Of a stretch of DNA of 33,536 bases, positions 1,881 through 33,536 are shown piece after piece; the stretch's first letter is position 1, and each line of letters opens with the position of its first letter. The stretch is from positions 1 through 33,536 of the forward strand of contig JAEUUX010000170.1 of the NCBI GenBank assembly GCA_016787295.1, given 5' to 3'. The notes under the pieces were generated by a model, which had not been told where the DNA came from, ran no database searches, and was given only the letters and a program-made list of their open reading frames with translations. Both the position numbers and the translations under genes were made by a program. This DNA is from Chitinophagales bacterium (GTDB lineage Bacteria > Bacteroidota > Bacteroidia > Chitinophagales > UBA2359).

Positions 1881-3286
1881 TTAAAATTGAAAGTAAATAA
1901 AACTTTGGCGTTGTGTCATGCCAAGCAACACAATGGCTACCACCAAACCCACACAAAACGCCACATCGCGACGCGGATACGCATTAAAATTCGACAGGTC
2001 GGGGACAGATTTTTTCTCTACATAGACCATCAATATCACCGCCAACAAAGCCACCGCGCTGCCCGAATATTGTTGTAAAAAATCGTTGCAAGCATTTTGC
2101 CACAGCGCCCAACTATTGCTATAAAACAAACGCTGTATCATCTGCAAAGCACTTTCATAGTCATTGGCACGAAAAAAAATGCGGAAAAAACAACCTAACG
2201 AAAACGTTATCATAATGCCCATGATGCGTCCCCAAACATTGTCGGGCAATTGCAGTGGGCTATATTTTTTGTAGAAAATCCATGCGATATAAAACATGGC
2301 ATATAATTCGCCCCAAATGAAATAGTTCCAATTGGCACCATGCCACCAGCCGCTTATGGCAAAAACTACCATGACATTGAAATACCAATGTCGCCCAAAA
2401 ACGCTATTTTTCAGCGGCATATACAGATAGTCGCGCAGCCATTTGGACAAAGAAATGTGCCAACGTTGCCAATAATCTTGCAGATTGACCGCCAACAAAG
2501 GCTGATTAAAGTTGGGTGAAAGTCGAAAACCCATCGTTCGAGCCGAACCAATGGCTATATCGCTATAACCCGAAAAATCGGCATATAGTTGTATCCCAAA
2601 AAAATAGGAAGCCAATATAACTGCTGCGCCATTGCTTTGGGTCGGTTGTCCATAGATAGCATCGACATAGATAGCCAAACGGTCGGCAATAACCATTTTT
2701 TTGAATAATCCCCACAACATAAGCCGCAAACCTACCAATAGATTTGCGGCATCAAAATGGGAGACTTGTTGCAATTGTGGTAATAAATTTTGAGGACGTT
2801 CTATGGGTCCTGCCACCAATTGCGGGTAAAATAACACATATAAGGCATAAATGCCCAAATGACGAACAGCTTTTTGCTGTCCTTTATATACCTCAATGGT
2901 GTAACTCAATGCCTGAAAGGTGTGGAAAGATAAACCCAAAGGCAGCAACCAATGCAACAAAGGCAAAGGCGTTGCAGGAAACAATACCTTAATATTGGTG
3001 ACAAAAAAATTGTAATATTTGAACAAAAACAAAATTCCCAAATTGCCCGCAATACTGCTCAACAAAAATAGTTTTTTGTGTGCTGGATAGCGTTCCATAG
3101 CTATAGCCGCACCAAAATCTATCCCAATAATCAGAAACAATATCAAGATATAAGGTGGATAAAAAGCCATGTAAAAAACACAACTACTCAACAACAACAG
3201 CCACCACCGATGCTGTTGCGGAAGCCAAAAAAAAGTGCCGTGACAATTGGAAAAAAGAACAGAAAATCGATGGAATTAAACAACAT
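1881..3286 (-). pseudogene. MBOAT O-acyltransferase (AlgI-like), frameshifted near the N-terminus
   Basis: The main frame (about 438 residues from 3197) is a polytopic MBOAT protein with the active-site block SGWWHGANWNYFIWGE and the upstream block DYWQRWHISLSKWLRDYL. It has no ATG at the expected position. The canonical N-terminus is in another frame: ATG at 3286 gives MLFNSIDFLFFFPIVTALFF and then shifts out and stops at 3188-3190. The main frame continues upstream as WLPQQHRWWLLLLSSCVFY. The two join exactly if the A8 run at 3227-3234 had nine bases. The joined sequence matches a normal AlgI start, so this is a one-base deletion, a sequencing error, or a slippage (phase-variable) site. A late ATG at 3170 would lose the first membrane helix. 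The stop is 6 bp before the SGNH partner. Confidence 0.85.
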
Positions 3287-8859: not shown

Positions 8860-10554
8860 ATGAAAGAAAAAAGACCTCGTATCATTCGCCCGCGTGACCG
8901 TTCGGAAAACGATCCGCTGGGTAATTTTAATGCACGTAGTAATCGTTACGACCGTTCTGACGACGAACAAACAGACTCTAATGCTGCTGATGATGATAAT
9001 GCACAACAAGAACGCAACACTTATCGTCAGTACAATGACACCCCTGATGAAGATGGTGGTGGCTATCAGAACCGCAACTACAACCGTGACGGCGGCGGTT
9101 ATCAAAACCGTAACTACAACCGCGATGGCGGTGGCGGCTATCAAAACCGTAACAATAACCGCGATGGTGGCGGCTATCAAAACCGTAACTACAACCGCGA
9201 TGGCGGTGGCGGCTATCAAAACCGTAACTACAACCGCGATGGTGGTGGCGGTGGCTATCAAAACCGTAACTACAACAACGACCAACAGCAAGGCGATGGC
9301 GGCGGCGGTTATCAGAACCGCAACAACAACCGCGATGGCGGTGGCGGTTATCAAAACCGTAACTACAACCGCGATGGTGGCGGTGGCGGTTATCAAAACC
9401 GTAACTACAATCGCGATGGCGGCGGCAGTTATCAAAACCGTAACTACAACCGCGATGGTGGTGGTGGTGGCTATCAAAACCGTAACTACAACAACGACCA
9501 ACAGCAAGGCGATGGCGGCGGCGGTTATCAAAACCGTAACTACAACCGTGATGGCGGCGGCGGTTATCAAAACCGTAACTACAACCGTGATGGTGGCGGC
9601 GGTGGCTATCAAAACCGCAACTACAACCGTGATGGTGGCGGCGGCGGCTATCAAAACCGTAACTACAACCGTGATGGTGGCGATGGCTACCAAAACCGAA
9701 ATAGTGGCGGTTATCAAAACCGCAACAACAATCGGCAACAAGATTTTAGATCCAACAACTACCAACGTTTCCATCCCGAACCGCCACAATACCGCGATGT
9801 GTCTTTGTTTACCAATGCGGAAAACGGCGTAAGGCTCAACAAATTTTTGTCTAACGCAGGAGTCGCTTCGCGCCGCAAAGCCGATGAATTGATTGCCGAA
9901 GGACAAATTTCTGTAAATAATGTGGTGGTAACAGAAATGGGTTATAGAATACAAGAATCAGATACCGTTATCTATGAAGGCAAACGCGTTTATCCGGGCA
10001 GAAAAGTATATGTACTGTTGAACAAGCCCAAAGATACCATCACAACCACCGACGACCCACAAGGCAGACACACCGTGATGGAACTGATAGACAATGCAGC
10101 CGAAGACCGTCTTTATCCTATTGGAAGATTAGACCGCAACTCTACAGGTGTATTAATGCTCACTAATGATGGCGAATTGGCACAAAAACTATCGCACCCA
10201 AGTAGTGAGATTCGCAAAATATACCACATTGTATTAGATAAACCATTGACCAAAAACGATTTCCAACGCATTCTCGACGGCGTGGAATTGGAAGATGGCA
10301 TGATAAAAGTCGATGACTTAGGTTTTCCATATGGTGACGACAAAACCCAAGTAGGCATTGAAATCCATAGCGGCAAAAACCGCATTATTCGTCGCTTATT
10401 TGACCACCTTGAGTACAATGTCCTTCGTTTAGACCGTGTGATGTATGCAGGTTTGACCAAAAAAGGCTTAAAACGTGGTGATTGGCGCTACCTCACCGAA
10501 AAAGAAGTAGGTTGGTTACGCCGAATGAATGTCAAACGCGAAAACCCTTCTTAG
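8860..10554 (+). CDS. rluB: RluB/RsuA-family rRNA pseudouridine synthase with long repeat extension
   Basis: A 564-residue protein in two parts. Residues 1-310 are a low-complexity, Arg/Asn/Gly/Tyr-rich extension with 17 copies of YQNRN. From about residue 323 comes an S4 RNA-binding domain (RLNKFLSNAGVASRRKADE) and then the RsuA/RluB catalytic domain with GRLDRNSTGVLML, where Asp425 is the catalytic residue, and NRIIRRLFDHL near the end. The family converts a uridine of 23S (RluB, RluE) or 16S (RsuA) rRNA to pseudouridine. RluB is the likeliest because an S4 domain is present and Bacteroidota RluB-type proteins often have disordered N-termini; the exact target site is inference. The extension is probably disordered and RNA-binding. 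ATG 8860 lies 72 bp after a TAnnTTTG box. Confidence 0.88.
   Translation: MKEKRPRIIRPRDRSENDPLGNFNARSNRYDRSDDEQTDSNAADDDNAQQERNTYRQYNDTPDEDGGGYQNRNYNRDGGGYQNRNYNRDGGGGYQNRNNNRDGGGYQNRNYNRDGGGGYQNRNYNRDGGGGGYQNRNYNNDQQQGDGGGGYQNRNNNRDGGGGYQNRNYNRDGGGGGYQNRNYNRDGGGSYQNRNYNRDGGGGGYQNRNYNNDQQQGDGGGGYQNRNYNRDGGGGYQNRNYNRDGGGGGYQNRNYNRDGGGGGYQNRNYNRDGGDGYQNRNSGGYQNRNNNRQQDFRSNNYQRFHPEPPQYRDVSLFTNAENGVRLNKFLSNAGVASRRKADELIAEGQISVNNVVVTEMGYRIQESDTVIYEGKRVYPGRKVYVLLNKPKDTITTTDDPQGRHTVMELIDNAAEDRLYPIGRLDRNSTGVLMLTNDGELAQKLSHPSSEIRKIYHIVLDKPLTKNDFQRILDGVELEDGMIKVDDLGFPYGDDKTQVGIEIHSGKNRIIRRLFDHLEYNVLRLDRVMYAGLTKKGLKRGDWRYLTEKEVGWLRRMNVKRENPS
9055..9735 (+). repeat. In-gene repeats encoding YQNRNYNRDGGGG units
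   Basis: Seventeen near-identical units of 36-42 bp encode YQNRNYNRD followed by 3-5 Gly. Two units carry the longer variant NNDQQQGD; these lie 216 bp apart (9273 and 9489), which suggests a multi-unit duplication. All length changes are multiples of three, so the frame is kept. Synonymous variation (ggcggt, ggtggc) shows the copies are not all recent. Confidence 0.95.
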
Positions 10555-14303: not shown

Positions 14304-14471
14304 GCAATAGATAAATCATTTGCCTACAAAAATATGCCATATTTAGCATTGTTTTTATGGATTAATGGAACATATAGCGCTGTAAAACTTGACTATAAGT
14401 AGAGCGTTAGCTGGCGCATAGCGGATTTGAACAAAATTAAATGGGTAGATAATATTGGGGGTTATTTTTTT
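14304..14471 (+). repeat. Diverged copy of the 168-bp module
   Basis: The second half (about 14343-14471) is clearly homologous to the 168-bp units at 15102 onward, including ATGGAACATATAGCGCTG and the variant A tail. The first 40 bp are diverged. It abuts the 126-bp modules at the same boundary used elsewhere. The 60 bp between miaA and this copy show nothing recognisable. Confidence 0.8.
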
Positions 14472-14849
14472 GATGTGTATAATATTGTTGCCTAAATTTG
14501 CTTTGAGGGTTATTATTTCACCCTTTCAGGGTTTCAAAAGGATTTGTTGTTTGTTTTTGCTATAAACTTTTCACCCTTTCAGGGTTTTTCTTTTTTTGAT
14601 GTGTATAATATTGTTGCCTAAATTTGCTTTGATGGTTATCATTTCACCCTTTCAGGGTTTCAAAAGGATTTGTTGTTTGTTTTTGCTATAAACTTTTCAC
14701 CCTTTCAGGGTTTTTCTTTTTTTGATGTGTATAATATTGTTGCCTAAATTTGCATTGAGGGTTATCATTTCACCCTTTCAGGGTTTTAAAAGGATTTGTT
14801 GTTTGTTTTTGCTATAAACTTTTCACCCTTTCAGGGTTTTTCTTTTTTT
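14472..14849 (+). repeat. Three 126-bp repeat modules
   Basis: Copies begin at 14472, 14598 and 14724, each exactly 126 bp, and start GATGTGTATAATATTG. Each carries two CACCCTTTCAGGGTTT elements 53 bp apart, whose ACCCT-TTC-AGGGT arms can form a small hairpin. Copies differ by a few substitutions. There is no convincing coding frame. Confidence 0.95.
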
Positions 14850-15101
14850 GATGTGGGTAAAAATTGTTTATGCCAACAGAGTTTTATTATTTTGTGTCTA
14901 TTTTTCTTGTTGAAATAGTAATAACCCCAACGGGGTGACAAGTTTATAGCATAGATATCGCCAAACATTTTACATAAACCCTGAAAGGGTGATATAAATG
15001 AAGGATAATGATTATCATTTCACCATTTTGGAGTTTTAAAAGAGTCTATTCTTTGTTTTTTGCTATAAACTTATCACCTTTTTAGGGTTTGGATTTTTTT
15101 G
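14850..15101 (+). repeat. 252-bp repeat module, copy 1
   Basis: It starts GATGTGGGTAAAAATTG and contains ACCCCAACGGGGTGACAAG, AAACCCTGAAAGGGTGAT, and the palindrome AATGATTATCATT at 15007-15019. It ends with a weak CACC...AGGGTTT element in the opposite orientation. Sister copies lie at 16321 and 19631. Confidence 0.95.
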
Positions 15102-15941
15102 GTGCGAAATAATTATGGTATTTGTAAGAACATTGTGTGTTTAGTGTTGTTTTTATGGATTAATGGAACATAGAGCGCTGCAAAACTTGACTACAAATAG
15201 AGAGTTAGCTGGAGCATAGCGGATTTGAGCAAAATTAAATGCGTAGATAATATTGAGGGTTATTTTTTTGTGCGAAATAATTATGGTATTTGCAAGAACA
15301 TTATGTGTTTAGTGTTGTTTTTGTGGATTGATGGAACATAGAGCGCTGTAAAACTTGACTACAAATAGAGAGTTAGCTGGCGCATAGCGGATTTGAGCAA
15401 AATTAAATGCGTAGATAATATTGGGGGTTATTTTTTTGTGAGAAATAATTATGGTATTTGTAAGAACATTGTGTGTTTAGTGTTGTTTTTGTGGATTAAT
15501 GGAACATAGAGCGCTGCAAAACTTGACTATAAGTAGAGGGTTAGCTGGAGCATAGCGGATTTGAACAAAATTAAATGGGTAGATAATATTGGGGGTTATT
15601 TTTTTGTGCGAAATAATTATGGCATTTGTAAGAACATTGTGTGTTTAGTGTTGTTTTTATGAATTAATGGAACATAGAGCGCTGTAAAACTTGACTACAA
15701 ATAGAGGGTTAGCTGATGTGCAGCGGGTTAGAATGTGATAAGCTGTGCGGATAATATTGGGGGTTATTTTTTTGTGCGAAATAATTATGGTATTTGTAAG
15801 AACATTGTGTGTTTAGTGTTGTTTTTGCGGATTGATGTAATATATAGCGCTGTAAAACTTGACTACAAATAGAAAGTTAGCTGGCGCATAGCGGATTTGA
15901 GCAAAATTAAATGGGTAGATAATATTGGGGGTTATTTTTTT
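15102..15941 (+). repeat. Five 168-bp tandem repeat modules
   Basis: Copies start at 15102, 15270, 15438, 15606 and 15774 with an exact 168-bp period, beginning GTGCGAAATAATTATGG or close. A 50-bp segment near the end exists in two forms: A (TTAGCTGGCGCATAGCGG) and B (TTAGCTGATGTGCAGCGGG). The order here is A, A, A, B, A. No reading frame is conserved. Confidence 0.95.
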
Positions 15942-16320
15942 GATGTGGGTAATATTGTCGTGATAATCTGCTTTGATGGTTATCATTTCACCCTTTCAGG
16001 GTTTTAAAAGGATTTGTTGTTTTCTTTTTTATAAACTTTCCGCCCTTTCAGAGGGTTTGGATTTTTTTGATGTGTGTAATATTGTTGCCTAAATTTGCTT
16101 TGATGGTTATCATTTCACCCTTTCAGGGTTTCAAAAGGATTTGTTGTTTGTTTTTGCTATAAACTTTTCACCCTTTCAGGGTTTGGATTTTTTTGATGTG
16201 TATAATATTGTTACCTAAATTTGCTTTTAGGGTTATTATTTTACCATTTCGGGGTTTTAAAAGGATTTGTTGTTTGTTTTTGCTATAAACTTTTCACCCT
16301 TTCAGGGTTTTTCTTTTTTT
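15942..16320 (+). repeat. Three 126-bp repeat modules, second set
   Basis: Copies start at 15942 (127 bp; its second element has two extra bases, TTTCAGAGGG), 16069 and 16195 (126 bp each). The third is more diverged in its first hairpin element (TTACCATTTCGGGGTTT). Confidence 0.93.
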
Positions 16321-16571
16321 GATGTGGGTAAAAATTGTTTATGCCAACAAAGTTTTATTATTTTGTGTTTATTTTTTTTGTTTAAATAGTGATAACCCCA
16401 ACGGGGTGACAAGTTTATAGCATAGGTATTGCCAAACATTTTACATAAACCCTGAAAGGGTGATATAAATGAAGGATAATGATTATCATTTCACCATTTT
16501 GGGGTTTTAAAAGGATTTGTTGTTTGTTTTTGCTATAAATGTGTCACCCTTTCAGGGTTTTCTTTTTTTTG
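16321..16571 (+). repeat. 252-bp repeat module, copy 2
   Basis: A 251-bp copy of the module at 14850, with the same ACCCCAACGGGGTGACAAG and AATGATTATCATT (16478-16490) elements. The last 75 bp are of the 126-bp module type (GGATTTGTTGTTTG) rather than the GAGTCTATTCTTTG type seen in the other two copies. Confidence 0.95.
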
Positions 16572-16712
16572 GTGAGAACAATATTATTATGGAAATTTGG
16601 ATTAACAAATGTAATTTCACCCATTTGAGGGTTTTATTTGGTTTGTGCTTTTTTATTTTCTATTATTTTATTGCTTTTTTAGGGTTTGGATTTTTTTGTT
16701 TTCTATAAATGA
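16572..16712 (+). repeat. Degenerate end of the first repeat block
   Basis: AT-rich sequence with eroded fragments of the modules (GTGAGAACAATATTATTATGG, then CACCCATTTGAGGGTTTT and TTTTAGGGTTTGG). An open frame here has only Phe-rich, low-complexity content and is not a gene. Confidence 0.6.
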
Positions 16713-18371: not shown

Positions 18372-18497
18372 GATGTGTATAATATTGTTGCCTAAATTTG
18401 TTTTTAGGGCTATCATTTCACCCTTTCAGGGTTTTAAAAGGGGCTGTTGTTTGTTTTTTCTATAAACTTTTCACCTTTTTAGGGTTTGATTTTTTTT
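18372..18497 (+). repeat. 126-bp repeat module
   Basis: One 126-bp module opens the second repeat block, with the same start (GATGTGTATAATATTG) and two CACC...AGGG elements, the second eroded (CACCTTTTTAGGG). Confidence 0.93.
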
Positions 18498-19504
18498 GTG
18501 CGAAATAATTATGGCATTTGTAAGAATATTGTGTGTTTAGTGTTGTTTTTGTAGATTAATGGAACATAGAGTGCTGCAAAACTTGACTATAAGTAGAGGG
18601 TTAGCTGATGTGTAGCGGGTTGGAATGTGATAAAGTGTGCGGATAATATTGGGGTTTATTTTTTTGTACGAAATAATTATGGCATTTATAAGAACATTAT
18701 GTGTTTAGTGTTGTTTTTGTGGATTAATAGAACATAGAGAGCTGCAAAACTTGACTACAAATAAAGGGTTAGCTGGCGTATAGCGGATTTGAGCAAAATT
18801 AAATGCGTAGACAATATTGGGGGTTATTTTTTGATGGAAATAATTATGACGTTTATAAGAACATTATGTGTTTGGTGTTGTTTTTGTGGATTAATGGAAC
18901 ATAGAGCGCTGTAAAACTTGACTACAAATAGAGGGTTAGCTGATGTGTAGCGGGTTGGAATGTGATAAAGTGTGCAGGTAATATTTGAGGTTATTTTTTT
19001 GATGGAAATAATTATGGTATTTGTAAGAACATTGTGTGTTTAGTGTTGTTTTTATGGATTAATGGAACATAGAGCGCTGCAAAACTTGACTACAAATAGA
19101 GGGTTAGCTGGCGCATGGCGGATTTGAACAAAATTAAATAGGTAGATAATATTGGGGGTTATTTTTTTGTGCGAAATAATTATAGCATTTGTAAGAACAT
19201 TGTGTGTTTAGTGTTGTTTTTATGGATTAATGGAACATATAGCGCTGCAAAACTTGACTATAAGCAGAGGGTTAGCTGATGTGTATCTGGTTGGAATGTA
19301 ATAAAGTGTGCGGATAATATTGGGGGTTATTTTTTTGTGCGAAATAATTATGGCATTTATAAGAACATTGTGTGTTTAGTGTTGTTTTTGTGGATTAATG
19401 GAACATAGAGCGCTGTAAAACTTGACTATAAGTAGAGGGTTAGCTGGCGCATAGCGGATTTGAGCAAAATTAAATGCGTAGATAATATTGGGGGTTATTT
19501 TTTT
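18498..19504 (+). repeat. Six 168-bp tandem repeat modules with alternating variants
   Basis: Copies start at 18498, 18666, 18833, 19001, 19169 and 19337; all are 168 bp except the second (167). The 50-bp variable segment reads B, A, B, A, B, A, so the effective unit is 336 bp. The third and fourth copies begin GATGGAAATAATTATG rather than GTGCGAAATAATTATG. No conserved reading frame exists. Confidence 0.95.
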
Positions 19505-19630
19505 GATGTGTATAATATTGTTGCCTAAATTTGCTTTTAGGGCTATCATTTCACCCTTTCAGGGTTTCAAAAGGGGCTGTTGTTTGTCTTTTCTATAAAC
19601 TTTTCACCCTTTCAGGGTTTTTCTTTTTTT
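19505..19630 (+). repeat. 126-bp repeat module
   Basis: An exact-length 126-bp module sits between the 168-bp array and the third 252-bp module, with two CACCCTTTCAGGGTTT elements. Confidence 0.93.
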
Positions 19631-19881
19631 GATGTGGGTAAAAATTGTTTATGCCGACAAAGTTTTATTATTTTGTGTTTATTTTTTTTGTTGAAATAGT
19701 GATAACCCCAACGGGGTGACAAGTTTGTAGCATAGGTATTGCCAAACATTTTACATAAACCCTGAAAGGGTGATATAAATGAAGGATAATGATTATCATT
19801 TCACCATTTTGGAGTTTTAAAAGAGTCTATTCTTTGTTTTTTGCTATAAACTTATCACCTTTTTAGGGTTTTTCTTTTTTT
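19631..19881 (+). repeat. 252-bp repeat module, copy 3
   Basis: A 251-bp copy. Its first half matches copy 2 at 16321 (GTGTTTATTTTTTTTG, AGGTATTGCC). Its last part matches copy 1 at 14850 (GAGTCTATTCTTTG, ATCACCTTTTTAGGG), so it is a mosaic. The AATGATTATCATT palindrome is at 19788-19800. Confidence 0.95.
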
Positions 19882-23751: not shown

Positions 23752-24615
23752 CTATAAAAATTGCCCATATCCCACATTGGTTTTGGCGCCAATGCCTATC
23801 GTTTTTAGCAAGGCTTTGTAGAAGTTCAAACGTTCTTGAGCGGTTAATAGGAAAGTATACTCCACATAATTTCCGTTTTCTTTGACATAATAATGGTTTT
23901 GCAAAACAAATTGGAAGCGAAACGTTACTTTCGGAAGTATTTTGAGCAAAGCAATAGGTATAGGGTTTTTAAACATATCCGCTACACCATCGCTTTTAGG
24001 GTTTTTGTGTGGCGTAATATAGTCGTCAGACAGAAAACAAGCTTTTGGAAAACCTTTGTGCGCAGGATGTTCGCTTTTGATAATGATTGCATCGTGAAAA
24101 ATATCGTTGCCTTTTATAGATTCGTTATCGCCATTGGCATTACCAAATATTTCGCGTTCCAATTTTTTGATGTCGATATCTTGCTTACCTTTGGGTAGCA
24201 GGGACTTGATAAACGCTATTTTTTGGTTGGCTTGTTCTTTGTCTTTGTCTTGCAAAGGAAACATACTGCGCAACAAACCTTTGACAGAGGAACCGGGAAT
24301 AAGTGGTAAACCTGTGGTGTGGTCAAAATAGAAACCAATTTTCAGTTCTCCCGACAAACCCGTACCATGTAAATATCCTGTTCCGATAAGCAAACCGGGA
24401 TAAGTGGTTGTTAGGTCACAATATTGTATTTTGTCACCAAACTCGTTATAGGCATACGGCGATTCTTTTGGCAAAGTTTGTTCAAAGATTTCTTTATTGG
24501 CTTTGTCAAAGATAGCTTTGTTATCCTTACTATCTTTTGTATCATGCCAATTGATTCCTTTGTAGTAGTTTTTATAATACAGCCAACCGACATTAGGTTG
24601 TTTAGTTGCTGCCAT
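23752..24615 (-). CDS. cmr6: Type III-B effector subunit Cmr6
   Basis: A 287-residue RAMP protein that caps the Cmr backbone near the 3' part of the crRNA. Family signatures are YPGLLIGTGYLHGTG, IGFYFDHTTGLPLIPGSS and VKGLLRSMFP near residues 75-125, then IFHDAIII (about 176-183) and a Gly-rich C-terminus IGIGAKTNVGYGQF. ATG 24615 is chosen because AAGGAGG lies just ahead, an unusually strong ribosome site for this phylum; a GTG two codons earlier overlaps it. The gene overlaps the end of cmr5 by 14 bp. It is the last gene of the operon, converging on the BNR gene. Confidence 0.92.
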   Translation of the reverse strand: MAATKQPNVGWLYYKNYYKGINWHDTKDSKDNKAIFDKANKEIFEQTLPKESPYAYNEFGDKIQYCDLTTTYPGLLIGTGYLHGTGLSGELKIGFYFDHTTGLPLIPGSSVKGLLRSMFPLQDKDKEQANQKIAFIKSLLPKGKQDIDIKKLEREIFGNANGDNESIKGNDIFHDAIIIKSEHPAHKGFPKACFLSDDYITPHKNPKSDGVADMFKNPIPIALLKILPKVTFRFQFVLQNHYYVKENGNYVEYTFLLTAQERLNFYKALLKTIGIGAKTNVGYGQFL

Positions 24616-25012
24616 TGTCACCTCCTTTTGAGTTTTCGTTTTTCAATTTTTCGAAAGTGCGAAGGCTTAGTTTAATGGCTATAGAGGCATTGATAATTGC
24701 TTTTTTCAATACCAATGATTTTTGGCGATCTCCTTGACATGCTAAAACAGCATTAAAAAGTCCTCCTTTTATTTTTAAAACTTGTTCGATAGCTTTCAAC
24801 AATTCAGGACGTTTTTCTTGTGTATTAGCATTTTCGTTTGAAAACACGGCGATAGTGGGCAGCAAACCCATTTGTATGATGCTGGCACCCAAAGAAGCAA
24901 TATAGCCGTTATATCCTGAAGGAACGCCTTTTTTCCCGTCCTTCGTTTCCACTAACTTTTCTTGCACAGCTTCGTATGCCGCAGGTATTAATTTTTCTAT
25001 TGTTTTTTGCAT
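24602..25012 (-). CDS. cmr5: Type III-B effector subunit Cmr5
   Basis: A 136-residue helical protein, the small (Cas11-like) subunit of the Cmr complex that forms the inner filament beside the target RNA. Recognisable parts are KKGVPSGYNGYIASLGASII and MGLLPTIAVFSN, followed by a helical C-terminus. ATG 25012 (MQKTIEKLIP) gives the normal family length; the frame remains open further upstream into cmr4 but that part is not similar. It lies 7 bp after cmr4 and overlaps cmr6, so the three are one transcription and translation unit. Confidence 0.88.
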   Translation of the reverse strand: MQKTIEKLIPAAYEAVQEKLVETKDGKKGVPSGYNGYIASLGASIIQMGLLPTIAVFSNENANTQEKRPELLKAIEQVLKIKGGLFNAVLACQGDRQKSLVLKKAIINASIAIKLSLRTFEKLKNENSKGGDNGSN

Positions 25013-25019
25013 GATGTTT

Positions 25020-25841
25020 TTATAGTTTAGTGAATTTACAAAAACCGTAACCAATGCTGGCGTTAGCTCCAATTTGGGTGATGTGATTCGCTATTCGTAA
25101 TAGACATTGAAAATCTTGATTGTCCAAAGGGCGTGCTATCAAAGTGTAAAAAACACTTTCGCGCGGCACAATTTCTTCGTACCAAAGATTTTTGCTTATA
25201 CCGTTCTCCAAATGGTTGCGAGCAATAACTGGTAAATTTTTTACTAATTCCTTGAAATCGTCATCAGGAAATAGTGCTAAATTATCGCCTAATAGTTTCG
25301 TTAGAATGGCTAATTTGGGCAACAATTGTTTGTCTATCGCAGTTGCTTTTTGGTCTTCGAGAATGGCGCTATTAATAGTATCGGAAAGTAAATAAATTTT
25401 ATCTGTCTTTTTGTTTAAGACTTCGCAGACTTCCTCGATTTGTGTTTTTGATGCTGACTGAACATTAAAAATTACCATGTCGTTGCACAATTGGCGCAAA
25501 GTGGCGAGCGAAAAAGCCCTGAAAAAAGGTTTTGTGTCGCTGCGAACGGGTAGGGATAAAAGTTGGGCAGTAAAAAACCGATGCGTTCCTGTTTGGCTTT
25601 TGCCATCGGAATTTTTATTGTTTTCGCTCCCAAAAATATCGTTGATTACATCTTTGTCGGAAAGCAACATTTCGGCATGTTGTCGCAAAGCGCCTTTCAT
25701 GCTCGAACTGTGTATGATGGGCATTTCGGTAATAACATCACGCTGCACTTGTTTGTCTATGATGCCATAATTGGTGTCGCCGCTACCGACGTGCATATTG
25801 GTGAGGCATCGAATGGTATAAAGGTCAGTGGTATACTGCAT
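25020..25841 (-). CDS. cmr4: Type III-B backbone and target-cleaving subunit Cmr4
   Basis: A 273-residue Cas7-like RAMP protein, present in several copies along the crRNA. The N-terminus reads RCLTNMHVGSGDTNYG followed by IIDKQVQRD. Asp29 occupies the position of the catalytic Asp that cleaves target RNA at 6-nt intervals in characterised Cmr4 proteins. IIHSSSMKGALRQHAE follows, and the C-terminus has ANASIGYGFCKF. ATG 25841 places this motif at the normal distance from the start; it is 7 bp after the cmr3 stop. Target RNA cleavage therefore looks intact. Confidence 0.92.
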   Translation of the reverse strand: MQYTTDLYTIRCLTNMHVGSGDTNYGIIDKQVQRDVITEMPIIHSSSMKGALRQHAEMLLSDKDVINDIFGSENNKNSDGKSQTGTHRFFTAQLLSLPVRSDTKPFFRAFSLATLRQLCNDMVIFNVQSASKTQIEEVCEVLNKKTDKIYLLSDTINSAILEDQKATAIDKQLLPKLAILTKLLGDNLALFPDDDFKELVKNLPVIARNHLENGISKNLWYEEIVPRESVFYTLIARPLDNQDFQCLLRIANHITQIGANASIGYGFCKFTKL

Positions 25842-25848
25842 AATATGA

Positions 25849-27036
25849 TTAAGGTTTGTTTGATGGTTGAGAAACAATAATGTATTGGTTATACCCAATT
25901 TGGCGAAAATCTTCGTGTTTGTCTATGAGTTGGGTTAGGTCGTTTTGTTTTTCTTTGCGGAAATACAAAACACTACCGCGTTTGAGCAGTTGATATTTGC
26001 GGCTTTTGGAGAGGGTGGCGTTTTTATCCGAAAGATTAAAATAGTGTTGCGTTTTATCTATATCGGTTTGCAAAAAACGGAAGGTCTCTACTTCCGTAAT
26101 GCCAAACAAACAATGGTCGAGCAGATTTTGCTCAACATACGTATCGGCAATTAGCACCATTTGTTGCACTTGGGAGTTGTTGCAGTTTTGGGATTTGATG
26201 TGCGAAATCGGATAGCCATAATTATCAGGAATAGCCTCAACAGCTTTAGCTTCGAGCATGAATGCTGAACGTTCGCCACCAATATGGACAATGCCGTTGG
26301 TGAGTTGTTGTGGTGTTTTGAAACAAACATAGAATGCAAAACAGTAACTTTTCTGCACATCATCTTTTTTGTTCAGACAAAAAGAAGTTTGTTTATAATA
26401 GCCTTTTTCGTCGTCGTCTTCGTATTCGTTTTCTTTGCTTCGGGTGTGTGGTTTGTGCGAATTATTGCGCTTAATGCCTATTTTTTCCACTGCCGTAAAC
26501 ATATCTTCATACGTTTTGCGTTCGCCACCACAACCGACAATATAGTGTGTTAGCTTTTCTTTTGCGGTGTACTCTTTGTGGCTTATTAAGCGAATGGTAT
26601 TATCTGCTTCGACTTGCAGTTGCCAATCTGTGATAGTGCTTGGTTGATAGCTTCGGTTAAAAGGTGCTATCCAGTAGTCTTTGTTGGTGTCGGGGTCGTG
26701 CAGAAAAACGGGAGAAAGGCAGTCAATATTGCCAAAATCGTTTTTACTGTATGTGTCATTAACACCAAAACTTTTGCTGCCTATGAGTTCTTTGGCTTTG
26801 GCTTTGTCGATATCTGTTATTGCTTGGTTGATGTTGAGCAGCAAACCTGCTTCGTGCAACAATTGGTAACGGATAAGCCCAAGTAAGGTTGTTTGTTGGG
26901 GATAATAGTTGGATTTAACCAAATAGTTTTCGTTATCATTGCCAAAAGTGTTTTCGCCGCCAAAGAAAAAAGGTGATAGCGGTCGTAGCACTATTAGGTA
27001 CTTTTGATGAGGCGTTTGTGAGGAATTGTTGGTCAT
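25849..27036 (-). CDS. cmr3: Type III-B effector subunit Cmr3
   Basis: A 395-residue Cas5-like RAMP protein that binds the 5' handle of the crRNA and contacts Cas10. The N-terminal LRPLSPFFFGGENTFG and QTTLLGLIRYQLL are typical of Cmr3. Later FGITEVETFRFLQTD (C-terminal half) and a final Gly-poor RAMP fold follow. The start ATG 27036 overlaps the cas10 stop as ATGA, implying translational coupling. There is an Arg/Glu/Asp-rich loop in the middle (about residues 195-215). Confidence 0.9.
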   Translation of the reverse strand: MTNNSSQTPHQKYLIVLRPLSPFFFGGENTFGNDNENYLVKSNYYPQQTTLLGLIRYQLLHEAGLLLNINQAITDIDKAKAKELIGSKSFGVNDTYSKNDFGNIDCLSPVFLHDPDTNKDYWIAPFNRSYQPSTITDWQLQVEADNTIRLISHKEYTAKEKLTHYIVGCGGERKTYEDMFTAVEKIGIKRNNSHKPHTRSKENEYEDDDEKGYYKQTSFCLNKKDDVQKSYCFAFYVCFKTPQQLTNGIVHIGGERSAFMLEAKAVEAIPDNYGYPISHIKSQNCNNSQVQQMVLIADTYVEQNLLDHCLFGITEVETFRFLQTDIDKTQHYFNLSDKNATLSKSRKYQLLKRGSVLYFRKEKQNDLTQLIDKHEDFRQIGYNQYIIVSQPSNKP

Positions 27037-28637
27037 ATTGTAGGTGGGGTGTTATTGTTTGGGGAACTTAGGAACTGAATAGTGCGCAATAGGGCATAGT
27101 AGGTTTTCATTGCCGTGTCTTCTTCTTTATCAAACGTTTTGTAGCATATCCACAACAAATCTGATACATACTCAATATATTTTTCTGTGTCGCCTTGGTG
27201 TATGGTTTCGTTGAAAAAGTTGGTAAAAAAGTGGATGAATGGGTTGCTGTCTGTTTCTCGCTGTTGCCAGATATGGTGAAGCAGGCTTTGGTTGTCGCGC
27301 AATTTGTAGATTAGCGACTGTAGACTTGCTTCTGAAAGGTGGATTTTGCCTATTTTTTCGATAAAATGGGTATATAATTGTCCTTCTTCACCTGTTTTTT
27401 TATGCAAAGTTGCTTCCCACCATTGTCCGCTGTGTTTTTGGATGCGGAAGGCGATGGCGTTTTTTGGGGAGGATTTCGCTTTTTCGAACAATAAGTTACG
27501 TGACATCTCCAAAGCCTCGAACATAGGGAATTTGTGATATGTAATAGATAAACCTAATGAAAGGCTCACCCCGTCACCAAACCCGCTATTAGCAAACTTT
27601 TTCTGAATACTGTCCATGAGTTCAAAAATACTGCTACCTTCGGCACAAACAGGTGCCAAAAACAATAAATCATCGCCACCAATATACAAAGGTTTTCCGC
27701 CATAGTTGCTAATCTCTTTCGCAGCCCATATAGCAAAATCGTACAATTTTTTAGAAAAACCAGTAAAATCATTTTCGTTAATGGCTTTTATCGTTTCGCC
27801 TATATTATCCCCATCGGCATGAACAATGCAAATATAACGATGGTAAGGCATCAGGTCTTTATTGTTTTTCAGTTTCGTATAAATCCCTTCTTCTTCGCCG
27901 CCATTATTCTGTGCAAATAATTCTGAATGGTTTTCGTATAGCCCAATAGTTGCTATATCAACAATGGAAGGAAAGCCATCGATATGTTTATATTTGCCTT
28001 TATTTTCAACTTGTTTAAAAGTTTCTTTAAATAGTTTGGAGCTATTAATGTTTTCGAAAAAAAGCTCTAAATAATTCGCTTTACTTCGTTTTGTATTAGC
28101 GTTAGTGCTTTCTTGCTCTTCTTCTTTAGGCACAACTTTGCATTGTAGTTCGAGGGTATCCAAATAAGGCGTAAGCGCAATAATGGCATTTTCGTTTGCT
28201 TTGAGCGTCTTTTCTACTATGCAGAATCTGAAATACTGTTTTATATACGCAGTTATGCTTTTTTCTTTTACTTCAATATTGTTTTTTTGAAAACAAGAAA
28301 TCATTATGCAGCTAACTTCGTTGAGGGTTTTCTCTATTGCCCTGTTAAGTTTTGCTGCCTCGTCTCCCTTGTTTTTACGAAAAATAAGGCGGTCAGGAAA
28401 AACACCTGCTCCATAATGATTCAGCGGTTCGTTACTATTCTCATTAGAATAATAAGGTATCAAAATTTGTTCGGAGGTGATACCTTCTTCTTGCAAGTTT
28501 TTAATGATATTGCCCATTATGTAGGAAAATAAGTAGCTGGCTCCCCACAGTTCGCGCGTAGCTCGTGCAAGAAGTAAGGTCTGATAAATCGGACCAATAG
28601 TAAGGGCGATATAAGAAGGCTGGGTAGATGAGCTCAT
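27033..28637 (-). CDS. cas10: Cas10 (Cmr2), cyclase-type, without HD domain
   Basis: A 534-residue signature subunit of type III-B systems. ATG 28637 (MSSSTQPSY) overlaps the hepT stop as ATGA; longer in-frame sequence upstream is antisense-like hepT DNA. The protein begins directly with the first palm-like domain (IGPIYQTLLLARATRELWGA). The second palm has HADGDNIGE (about residues 273-281) and YIGGDDLLFLAP with the GGDD catalytic pair at 320-323. No HD nuclease domain precedes the palm, and 534 residues is well short of HD-containing Cmr2 proteins. So it should synthesise a nucleotide messenger on target RNA binding but not cut DNA. In B. fragilis an HD-less Cas10 next to CorA makes SAM-AMP; the same product here is inference. 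Confidence 0.93.
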   Translation of the reverse strand: MSSSTQPSYIALTIGPIYQTLLLARATRELWGASYLFSYIMGNIIKNLQEEGITSEQILIPYYSNENSNEPLNHYGAGVFPDRLIFRKNKGDEAAKLNRAIEKTLNEVSCIMISCFQKNNIEVKEKSITAYIKQYFRFCIVEKTLKANENAIIALTPYLDTLELQCKVVPKEEEQESTNANTKRSKANYLELFFENINSSKLFKETFKQVENKGKYKHIDGFPSIVDIATIGLYENHSELFAQNNGGEEEGIYTKLKNNKDLMPYHRYICIVHADGDNIGETIKAINENDFTGFSKKLYDFAIWAAKEISNYGGKPLYIGGDDLLFLAPVCAEGSSIFELMDSIQKKFANSGFGDGVSLSLGLSITYHKFPMFEALEMSRNLLFEKAKSSPKNAIAFRIQKHSGQWWEATLHKKTGEEGQLYTHFIEKIGKIHLSEASLQSLIYKLRDNQSLLHHIWQQRETDSNPFIHFFTNFFNETIHQGDTEKYIEYVSDLLWICYKTFDKEEDTAMKTYYALLRTIQFLSSPNNNTPPTI

Positions 28638-28975
28638 ATATGGGTTAAAAGTTTTTTTAGTTTGAGTAAAAGCTGTGGCAAATGGTTTTTGATAATGTTC
28701 CATTCTATTTGTCTCTCTACACGAAAATACTCGTGTATCAGCACATTGCGAAAAGCCACCATTTTTTGCCATTCTATGTGGGTATGTTGGAGCATAAATG
28801 CTTCGGGCAGTTGACGGGTTGCCTCTCCCACTATTTCGAAACATCGGTCGACGGCATAACTTGTCTTATTGTCCGCCTCAAACATAGTATAATCCATGTC
28901 GGAAGTGAACACTAAAATAAGTTCCATATTGTGAACAATATCTTGTACGATGAGTTTTTCATCTCTTTTAGACAT
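28634..28975 (-). CDS. hepT: HEPN-domain RNase toxin, HepT/DUF86 family
   Basis: A 113-residue all-helical protein of the HepT (DUF86) family. The active-site motif RNVLIHEY (about residues 75-82) fits R-X4-H-X-Y exactly: Arg and His for RNA cleavage, and the Tyr that MntA-type partners modify with AMP. Conserved YAVDRCFEIVGEATRQLP is also present. The start overlaps the mntA stop by 8 bp, and its own stop overlaps the cas10 start as ATGA. So it is inside the cmr operon and coupled to both neighbours. In known pairs HepT is an RNase toxin silenced by MntA. Whether this pair is an addiction module or a working part of the CRISPR response is not shown by sequence. Confidence 0.9.
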   Translation of the reverse strand: MSKRDEKLIVQDIVHNMELILVFTSDMDYTMFEADNKTSYAVDRCFEIVGEATRQLPEAFMLQHTHIEWQKMVAFRNVLIHEYFRVERQIEWNIIKNHLPQLLLKLKKLLTHI

Positions 28976-29270
28976 ATTGCAAATCGTTTTTGATGTATTG
29001 CCAATAAGGGGCGGGTATAGCGCCTTCGGTTACTAAATCTATTTTTTTGTTCCCAAATAGTGTTTGTAGTTCAAAATAAAGATCTAGATATTCATAACCG
29101 ACTTGTTGATGTGTAAAGTTGACCAATAAATCAATATCACTGGTTTCGGTAGCCTCGTTTCGGCTATACGAACCAAATAAAGCTAAAGAGTGAATAGGAT
29201 ATTTAGCTTTAAGGGCGGGTAGTTCCTGTCGCAAAAGTGCTATAATGCTGTTGTTATTAATTGGTGTCAT
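28968..29270 (-). CDS. mntA: MntA-type minimal nucleotidyltransferase antitoxin
   Basis: A 100-residue DNA-polymerase-beta-like nucleotidyltransferase. FGSYSRNEATETSDIDLLV fits the MntA motif G-S-X10-D-X-D exactly, and KKIDLV supplies the third Asp. The chosen ATG 29270 (MTPINNNSI) gives the usual MntA length; a longer frame to 29339 reaches into the end of cmr1 without family support. Known MntA enzymes transfer AMP to the conserved Tyr of HepT and so block its RNase activity. It starts 53 bp after the cmr1 stop, the only sizeable gap in the operon, and overlaps hepT by 8 bp. Confidence 0.9.
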   Translation of the reverse strand: MTPINNNSIIALLRQELPALKAKYPIHSLALFGSYSRNEATETSDIDLLVNFTHQQVGYEYLDLYFELQTLFGNKKIDLVTEGAIPAPYWQYIKNDLQYV

Positions 29271-29323
29271 AAAACTTATTATTAAGATGAAACAAAATCT
29301 TAGTTCACCGAAGCAACGTACTT

Positions 29324-30553
29324 CTACACCTGCTTCCAATCTTTTCCTAAGTAATTTTTCAAAAAATCACCTAAATTTAAAATCATTTCAAGCGGTGGTG
29401 TTTTGATGTGCAAAGGAACACGGTCGTCAGCGCTAAATTCAAAAGTACGTTCGTACAAATCATCGGGTATTTCACCACAAAGGATATAGATGTGCTTATT
29501 AACGACTTTGAAAGTTAGCGGCGATTTAAAGCGCTCTATTTCGCCCGCCAAATCGTTAATTTTTACTTTATCTATAGGAATGCTTGCTTGCATATAGACA
29601 TATTCCTCTGCCAAACCCAATAGTATGCGAATGTAGCGCTCGTTGGGCCAAGCGACTATTTGTTTTGCTCCATCGGCTTGTTCGCGGTTTTCTTTGCGAT
29701 AATACAAACAGTCTTTAATAGGAACGGCTTCCCAAACAACAGGAAGTCCCTCTATTTTTTTTGTTAGATAATGTTGTTGCAATTTGGAGGGCGTTTGGCG
29801 AATCCCATCGCTGTTTTTCTTGCCTTTGCCGCTTTTCAATACCTGATAGGTGTCTGTTATCATCTTGAAAATTTGGTCTATTCCAATATACGTTTGGATA
29901 GAACAAAAAACAGGACGTGCATTTTGGCGAAAAATCTCTGTAATGCGTTCATCGTTCAAATTGGCAGTGGTGAAACTGCCAAAACCTTTGCTTTGGCGCG
30001 TACCAAAGTTGTGCAACAACAAAAATTCTTCAAAATATTTGTCAATAATATCGAGCAAGTCGGTATTAAGCGAAAAAAAAGTAACCGTAATGCTGCCTTC
30101 ACACAATACTCCTTTGCGGATAGAGTCAAAATCGGCTTCATAAGATTTGATGAACTGATTATCGGCAAAGTAGGGCGCAGGCGAAATGGGTATGTAAGCG
30201 TTTTTGCTAACCAAATCTTTCTGTTTTCCGTTGAGCAAACTTGCAAAAATGTAGTTTTTTGCGTTTCCTTCTTCCGTAATGCGCACTTTGTAGTCCAAGG
30301 CAGGGAACTCGGCTTGGTTTTTACCAATAAAAAAATGGCGTGCCTCTTTTTTTATGTTCTTCTTCCAATCTTTATCGGTCGAAGTAGGATCGTTCTGCCA
30401 AGATTCCTTAGCGATAATGAATTTATCCAACTTTGGTTTTAGTTCGGTGGCGCGCAAAGTAGCTCCATCTTGGTCGGCTTGAAAATGGATAATAGGTGTG
30501 TGTTGTTGTAATTGAAATTCTCGGATGAATCTTGACTGGTTGTTGTTTGTCAT
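29324..30553 (-). CDS. cmr1: Probable type III-B effector subunit Cmr1
   Basis: A 409-residue RAMP-like protein, first gene of the cmr operon. The N-terminus reads FQLQQHTPIIHFQADQDGA then TLRATELKPKLDKF, the form I associate with Bacteroidota Cmr1-type proteins, though it differs from the shorter archaeal Cmr1 signature. A Gly-rich stretch NFGTRQSKGFGSFTTA (near residue 190) is a RAMP hallmark. Position also argues for Cmr1: the operon then has all six subunits in the usual order. Cmr1 sits at the 3' end of the crRNA filament and helps seal the target RNA. A TACCTTTGC promoter box lies 43 bp upstream. If not Cmr1 it is another RAMP filling that place. Confidence 0.78.
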   Translation of the reverse strand: MTNNNQSRFIREFQLQQHTPIIHFQADQDGATLRATELKPKLDKFIIAKESWQNDPTSTDKDWKKNIKKEARHFFIGKNQAEFPALDYKVRITEEGNAKNYIFASLLNGKQKDLVSKNAYIPISPAPYFADNQFIKSYEADFDSIRKGVLCEGSITVTFFSLNTDLLDIIDKYFEEFLLLHNFGTRQSKGFGSFTTANLNDERITEIFRQNARPVFCSIQTYIGIDQIFKMITDTYQVLKSGKGKKNSDGIRQTPSKLQQHYLTKKIEGLPVVWEAVPIKDCLYYRKENREQADGAKQIVAWPNERYIRILLGLAEEYVYMQASIPIDKVKINDLAGEIERFKSPLTFKVVNKHIYILCGEIPDDLYERTFEFSADDRVPLHIKTPPLEMILNLGDFLKNYLGKDWKQV

Positions 30554-33337: not shown

Positions 33338-33397
33338 CAACAACTATTTCATTTCACCAAGTTTTTTAATCAAGTTATTTATCGATGTTTCCCATGA

Positions 33398-33536
33398 ACT
33401 AACGATTCATTACTATGAAGCAACGATTCATTACTATGAAGCAACGATTCATTACTATGAAGCAACGATTCATTACTATGAAGCAACGATTCATTACTAT
33501 GAAGCAACGATTCATTACTATGAAGCAACGATTCAT
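33398..33536. repeat. 21-bp tandem repeat array, right end
   Basis: Units start at 33412, 33433, 33454, 33475, 33496 and 33517, after a partial unit from 33398. The unit is the same 16-bp core as the left array (ATTACTATGAAGCAAC), here followed by GATTC instead of TTTTC. Orientation is the same as on the left. The last unit is cut by the end of the window. Confidence 0.95.

Follow-up and report, generated by a model that had tools for sequence, protein, structure and literature searches.

A frame break near the start of an MBOAT gene

Why does a membrane-bound O-acyltransferase (MBOAT) gene in a Chitinophagales genome begin in one reading frame and continue in another? The gene lies in a window of 33,536 nucleotides, which is one whole contig of a 5.42 Mb genome assembled in 296 contigs and estimated to be 98.3% complete. 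The original prediction had placed an A8 run at 3227–3234, an AlgI-type N-terminus from ATG 3286 and the continuation of the protein in a second frame, and all of this was confirmed by translation (table 1). Read on the minus strand from ATG 3286, the gene yields 32 codons (MLFNSIDFLFFFPIVTALFFGFRNSIGGGCCC) before the stop TGA at 3190–3188, with the T8 tract falling on codons 18–20. The other frame, read from 3233, gives FFWLPQQHRWWLLLLSSCVFY... and stays open for 450 residues to the stop at 1881, the protein continuing in this frame as FFWLPQQHRWWLLLLSS... The MLFNSIDFLFFFPIVTA piece encoded ahead of the tract corresponds, as predicted from its translation, to the membrane segment found at the N-terminus of AlgI/DltB-like MBOATs.

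Both halves share one frame in all 104 usable homologues (see below), and the simplest reading is therefore that one base was lost within the tract: compared with an intact gene, the assembly is one base short inside T8. This is the single lesion in the gene, with no other in the 450 downstream codons; the summed length of the two pieces fits the family, and both match it from end to end. An alternative start in the downstream frame was considered and rejected. The first ATG, GTG or TTG in that frame is the TTG at 3197, and because this lies past the first membrane segment, no start in the downstream frame retains the N-terminus; the segment lost in this way is retained in 104 of 104 homologues.

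Table 1. Features of the frame-broken MBOAT gene and its partner (window coordinates).
Feature	Position	Strand	Detail or basis
MBOAT start codon, ATG	3284–3286	minus	sequence; start region shared with homologues
5' coding piece, frame 0, MLFNSIDFLFFFPIVTA plus first base of next codon	3235–3286	minus	translation; homologue column consensus
T8 tract (A8 on plus strand), site of frame loss	3227–3234	minus	frame-0 codons CTT TTT TTT GGC
Predicted RNA hairpin, 8 + 4 bp stem	3189–3218	minus	starts 8 nt after tract; MFE −14.5 kcal/mol (45-base segment)
Premature TGA, frame 0, codon 33	3188–3190	minus	sequence; codon arithmetic
MBOAT remainder, other frame, 450 codons plus stop, uninterrupted	1881–3233	minus	translation; profile
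Downstream partner gene, 321 aa, intact	909–1874	minus	6 nt after MBOAT stop

Protein family and genomic neighbourhood

The downstream-frame protein scores 85.9 bits against the MBOAT profile PF03062, for which the curated cut-off is 27. Its RWH and WWHG motifs align with those of the DltB structures 6bug and 8jem, and both motif histidines, which we take to be the catalytic ones, are retained. Against the DltB equivalog TIGR04091 it reaches 156.4 bits, below the cut-off of 375. The gene thus has in common with AlgI/DltB-type MBOATs (PF03062) a similarity over the full length, an M-L-F-N-S N-terminus, the RWH and WWHG motifs and a partner gene on the 3' side, whereas it differs from them in that its frame is broken after about 20 codons and in lying below the NCBIfam DltB cut-off. 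Judged from its sequence, it is a predicted ordinary AlgI/DltB-type MBOAT gene, frame-broken in this assembly. Three further MBOAT genes are present elsewhere in the genome, unbroken within their matches.

Relatives of the partner gene were found in 12 of the 112 homologous loci and, in 10 of these 12, on the same strand and downstream of the MBOAT gene. Because they lie 3' of MBOAT in 10 loci, the two genes form a recurrent unit. Pfam identifies no family in the 321-aa partner protein; by eye, it presumably resembles the SGNH-type acyltransferase partners.

Other parts of the window were also annotated. Genes for type III-B CRISPR effectors (RAMPs, Cmr5, Cmr3 and Cas10/Cmr2 by Pfam) occupy 23755–28844, and beside them, at 28634–29339, lies a HepT-like/nucleotidyltransferase pair that is likely to be a toxin–antitoxin module. 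As listed, the Cas10/Cmr2 ORF overlaps the HepT frame with its 5' end, and Cas10 therefore probably starts further inside that ORF. A long Gly/Asn/Arg-rich repeat array at 9055–9698, with units of 39–42 nt, lies in the tail at the N-terminus of a protein resembling pseudouridine synthases (named by eye).

The frame is continuous in homologues

We fetched 112 homologous loci; one of the searches gave at least 588 matches, of which the best 80 were kept. Of these loci 104 could be read at the tract; the match began too far inside the gene in the other eight, which were left out. The N-terminal segment and the rest of the protein lie in one frame in 104 of 104 cases (101 by an automatic test for an F-N-S-like motif and three by eye), and none of the 104 is broken or frameshifted at the tract site. 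The 5' piece in the window is close to the homologue column consensus (F-N-S, F-F-P, V-T). The originally proposed one-base shift in the A8 tract of the MBOAT gene therefore holds, given the single frame of the 104 homologues and the PF03062 match.

An earlier count of 89 homologues included 19 without an ATG 12–26 codons upstream; by eye, the translations of these 19 mostly have GTG/TTG-type starts or a longer N-terminus. Many of the named homologues belong to Bacteroidota, and the relatives compared are only about 36–53% identical to the window gene. There was no genome of the same genus among the 99 genomes searched, and viral contigs, searched with the flanking sequences while the tract length was left open, gave no match.

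Conservation of the run in relatives had been suggested as a check, and the tract proved to be poorly kept. The longest T run at the site is seven in one homologue and eight in one other, giving two of 104 with T7 or longer, and the T8-bearing homologue (L042) is in frame.

Tract length against the genome background

The run had been described as a long homopolymer, a description that gains no support from the genome. The window contains 18 A8 matches, where shuffling leads one to expect 24.7, and 314 A/T runs of at least 8 were counted in 738,165 readable bases of the sampled genome. Of these runs, 92 fall in predicted coding DNA, and at 71 runs of this length one frame is maintained for 45 bases on either side. 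A second T8 is found within the same MBOAT gene, at 2172–2179, and is unbroken; A/T runs of at least 10 are few (seven in the genome sample). Codon usage favours TTT over TTC by 3:1 (6555 vs 2194) and Phe codons are abundant at the homologous place, so coding alone is enough to produce a T tract. Runs of at least 8 are also found early in coding stretches, the first tenth of which holds 23 of 88, and a 5' bias of such runs in prokaryotes is reported in PMC2831843. Runs placed this early may give genes in general, and not the MBOAT gene in particular, a weak path towards loss. We conclude that the length of the A8/T8 run is background for this genome and that the tract is not special.

Frame breaks elsewhere in the assembly

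Whether the assembly is prone to such breaks was examined with a 3-periodic coding HMM, run over the window and 60 further stretches (61 sequences, 738 kb readable). It reported 20 same-strand frame switches, most of them at places where the stop of one gene coincides with the start of the next or lies close to it (overlaps or close junctions). The two most suspicious switches were considered as split genes and rejected, because the two sides match different Pfam families or just one of the sides matches any; they look like neighbouring genes. When one-base deletions were simulated, the HMM recovered 43 of 53 in inner runs but just 3 of 39 where the run lay near the end of a coding stretch, and it called none among 92 undeleted controls. 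With so low a recovery at the ends, the survey says little about a break this near to a start codon. That the assembly suffers from systematic homopolymer errors was rejected as an explanation, errors inside genes at runs of at least 8 being rare in the HMM survey. Systematic errors inside genes are unlikely; a stray error near a start is possible.

Repeats are a further feature of the contig. Both of its ends (1–139 and 33394–33536) consist of tandemly repeated 21-nt units that are related to each other (ATGAAGCAAC..TTCATT..), so that the assembly apparently broke at the same repeat family on both sides. Two ORF-poor regions, at 14462–16708 and 18491–19641, contain tandem arrays of 126-nt and 168-nt units that are up to 98% alike within arrays; the two have the 168-nt unit in common, as well as a CACCCTTTCAGGG motif. 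Rfam identifies no family in the window.

Explanations for the broken frame

The gene might still give some full-length protein, by design or as an accidental rescue, if ribosomes shifted by −1 on U UUU UUU ahead of the hairpin or if RNA polymerase slipped on T8, a route that the original prediction had not considered. The slippery heptamer is in the right phase (CUU UUU UUU GGC), reading after a −1 shift would continue in precisely the downstream frame and the rest of the MBOAT gene is undamaged. The strongest point in favour of recoding is the hairpin: its stability is matched by just 4 of 405 coding A/T runs of at least 7 and by 43 of 3000 random coding places (top 1–1.4%). However, a fold at least as stable is found at the same place in 13 of the 104 intact homologues, an in-genome paralogue (L002) has one of the strongest (−18.7), and z values of −1.67 and −1.19 for larger segments make the fold unexceptional in its wider context. 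Perfect stems of at least nine pairs are rarer (2 of 89 homologues at the site and 10 of 405 coding runs), which mildly favours the hairpin. The pairing exists because the Gln-Gln codons (CAACAG) are complementary to the Leu-Leu-Leu codons (CTGTTGTTG), and the hairpin is probably a by-product of coding for Q-Q ... L-L-L-L; with unbroken homologues equally strong, it was rejected as decisive evidence for recoding. No homologue of the 104 shifts frame at the tract site, which thus lacks the conservation by which a programmed −1 frameshift is recognized. As to the polymerase, PMC1088944 describes slippage-prone runs of nine, and of eight in some IS elements, together with ‘pseudo pseudogenes’. 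The MBOAT gene resembles these in that its frame is interrupted at an A/T run and slippage there would bring the full product back, and differs from them in that the run is 8 rather than 9 and is known here from sequence alone. In PMC1088944 and PMC5009743, transcriptional slippage is mainly described for runs of at least nine, and this tract has eight. Programmed recoding is unlikely, and slippage of either kind, programmed or accidental, is an improbable account of the locus. We attach very little credence to the more elaborate scheme of a two-layer expression dial, in which T8 and hairpin would form a lineage-specific −1 frameshift cassette that keeps a surface acyltransferase at a low constitutive level, and a tract lengthened by replication slippage would provide a second, heritable ‘high’ state.

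Phase variation would make T8 a contingency site at which slipped-strand mispairing toggles surface-polymer acylation, the assembly having caught the off state. The tract is early in the gene, where a slip leads to complete loss of the product, and by its family the gene acts in a cell-surface pathway. Phase-variable or frameshift-variable polymer acetylation is reportedly known from neuO and wciG. A short 5' tract also has a precedent in the A6/A7 of Listeria monocytogenes inlA, for which PMC2831843 gives an A6 to A7 reversion of about 5.5e-7; there too a one-base change in a short 5' A/T tract results in a very short product, although both inlA alleles come from isolates with measured rates, whereas the MBOAT tract is known from one consensus sequence. 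A poly-A/T run of at least 7 near a frameshift, a sign of phase variation in PMC3711429, is provided by the T8 at 3227–3234, but such runs are background here. Several related genes broken, or the tract kept, would be a further sign; none of 104 homologues is broken and only two have T7 or longer. The scarcity of A/T runs of at least 10 gives no sign of a contingency-locus lifestyle, and missing mismatch repair was rejected, MutS1 and MutL being intact and found with open frames. The original prediction had called phase variation a real option; with a background tract and open MutS1 and MutL it gains no support, and we give it a slim chance. Very improbable, finally, is a gene permanently off in the species with decay only beginning. 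The frame is broken, and three other MBOAT genes could make this one dispensable; against this, there is no further lesion in 450 codons, both motif histidines are retained and the partner gene is intact.

A singleton homopolymer slip as the preferred reading

We consider it likely that the locus carries a singleton homopolymer indel, which came about by recent mutation or through an error in the consensus; the gene is otherwise intact, and so is its partner. One base would have been lost from the T tract near the 5' end of the MBOAT gene by a one-off homopolymer slip. Replication may have slipped recently in the sampled cells, which would turn the acyltransferase off and leave three other MBOAT genes, or the slip may have occurred in sequencing or in the assembly consensus. 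To a real mutation we would give somewhat less than an even chance, and a consensus error seems possible but rather doubtful. Sequencing error and recent mutation, both of which the original prediction had listed, are the most likely readings. The case is like the singletons of the GeneTack survey (PMC3711429) in being a homology-supported frame break that relatives do not share; in that survey, singleton breaks with homology support are expected to be mostly sequencing errors, with recent indels as the other source.

We infer that the cause was chance and not a selected switch. Because one consensus sequence alone underlies this reading, chance is argued from absence, and the lack of a second lesion also fits a gene that is still expressed through slippage or switching.

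For annotation, the locus calls for caution: automatic gene calling would probably yield a pseudogene or an MBOAT cut short at its N-terminus, where the family evidence indicates one gene. Should both tract lengths prove to coexist, the locus would be an example of surface-polymer acylation that an environmental lineage of Bacteroidota can switch.
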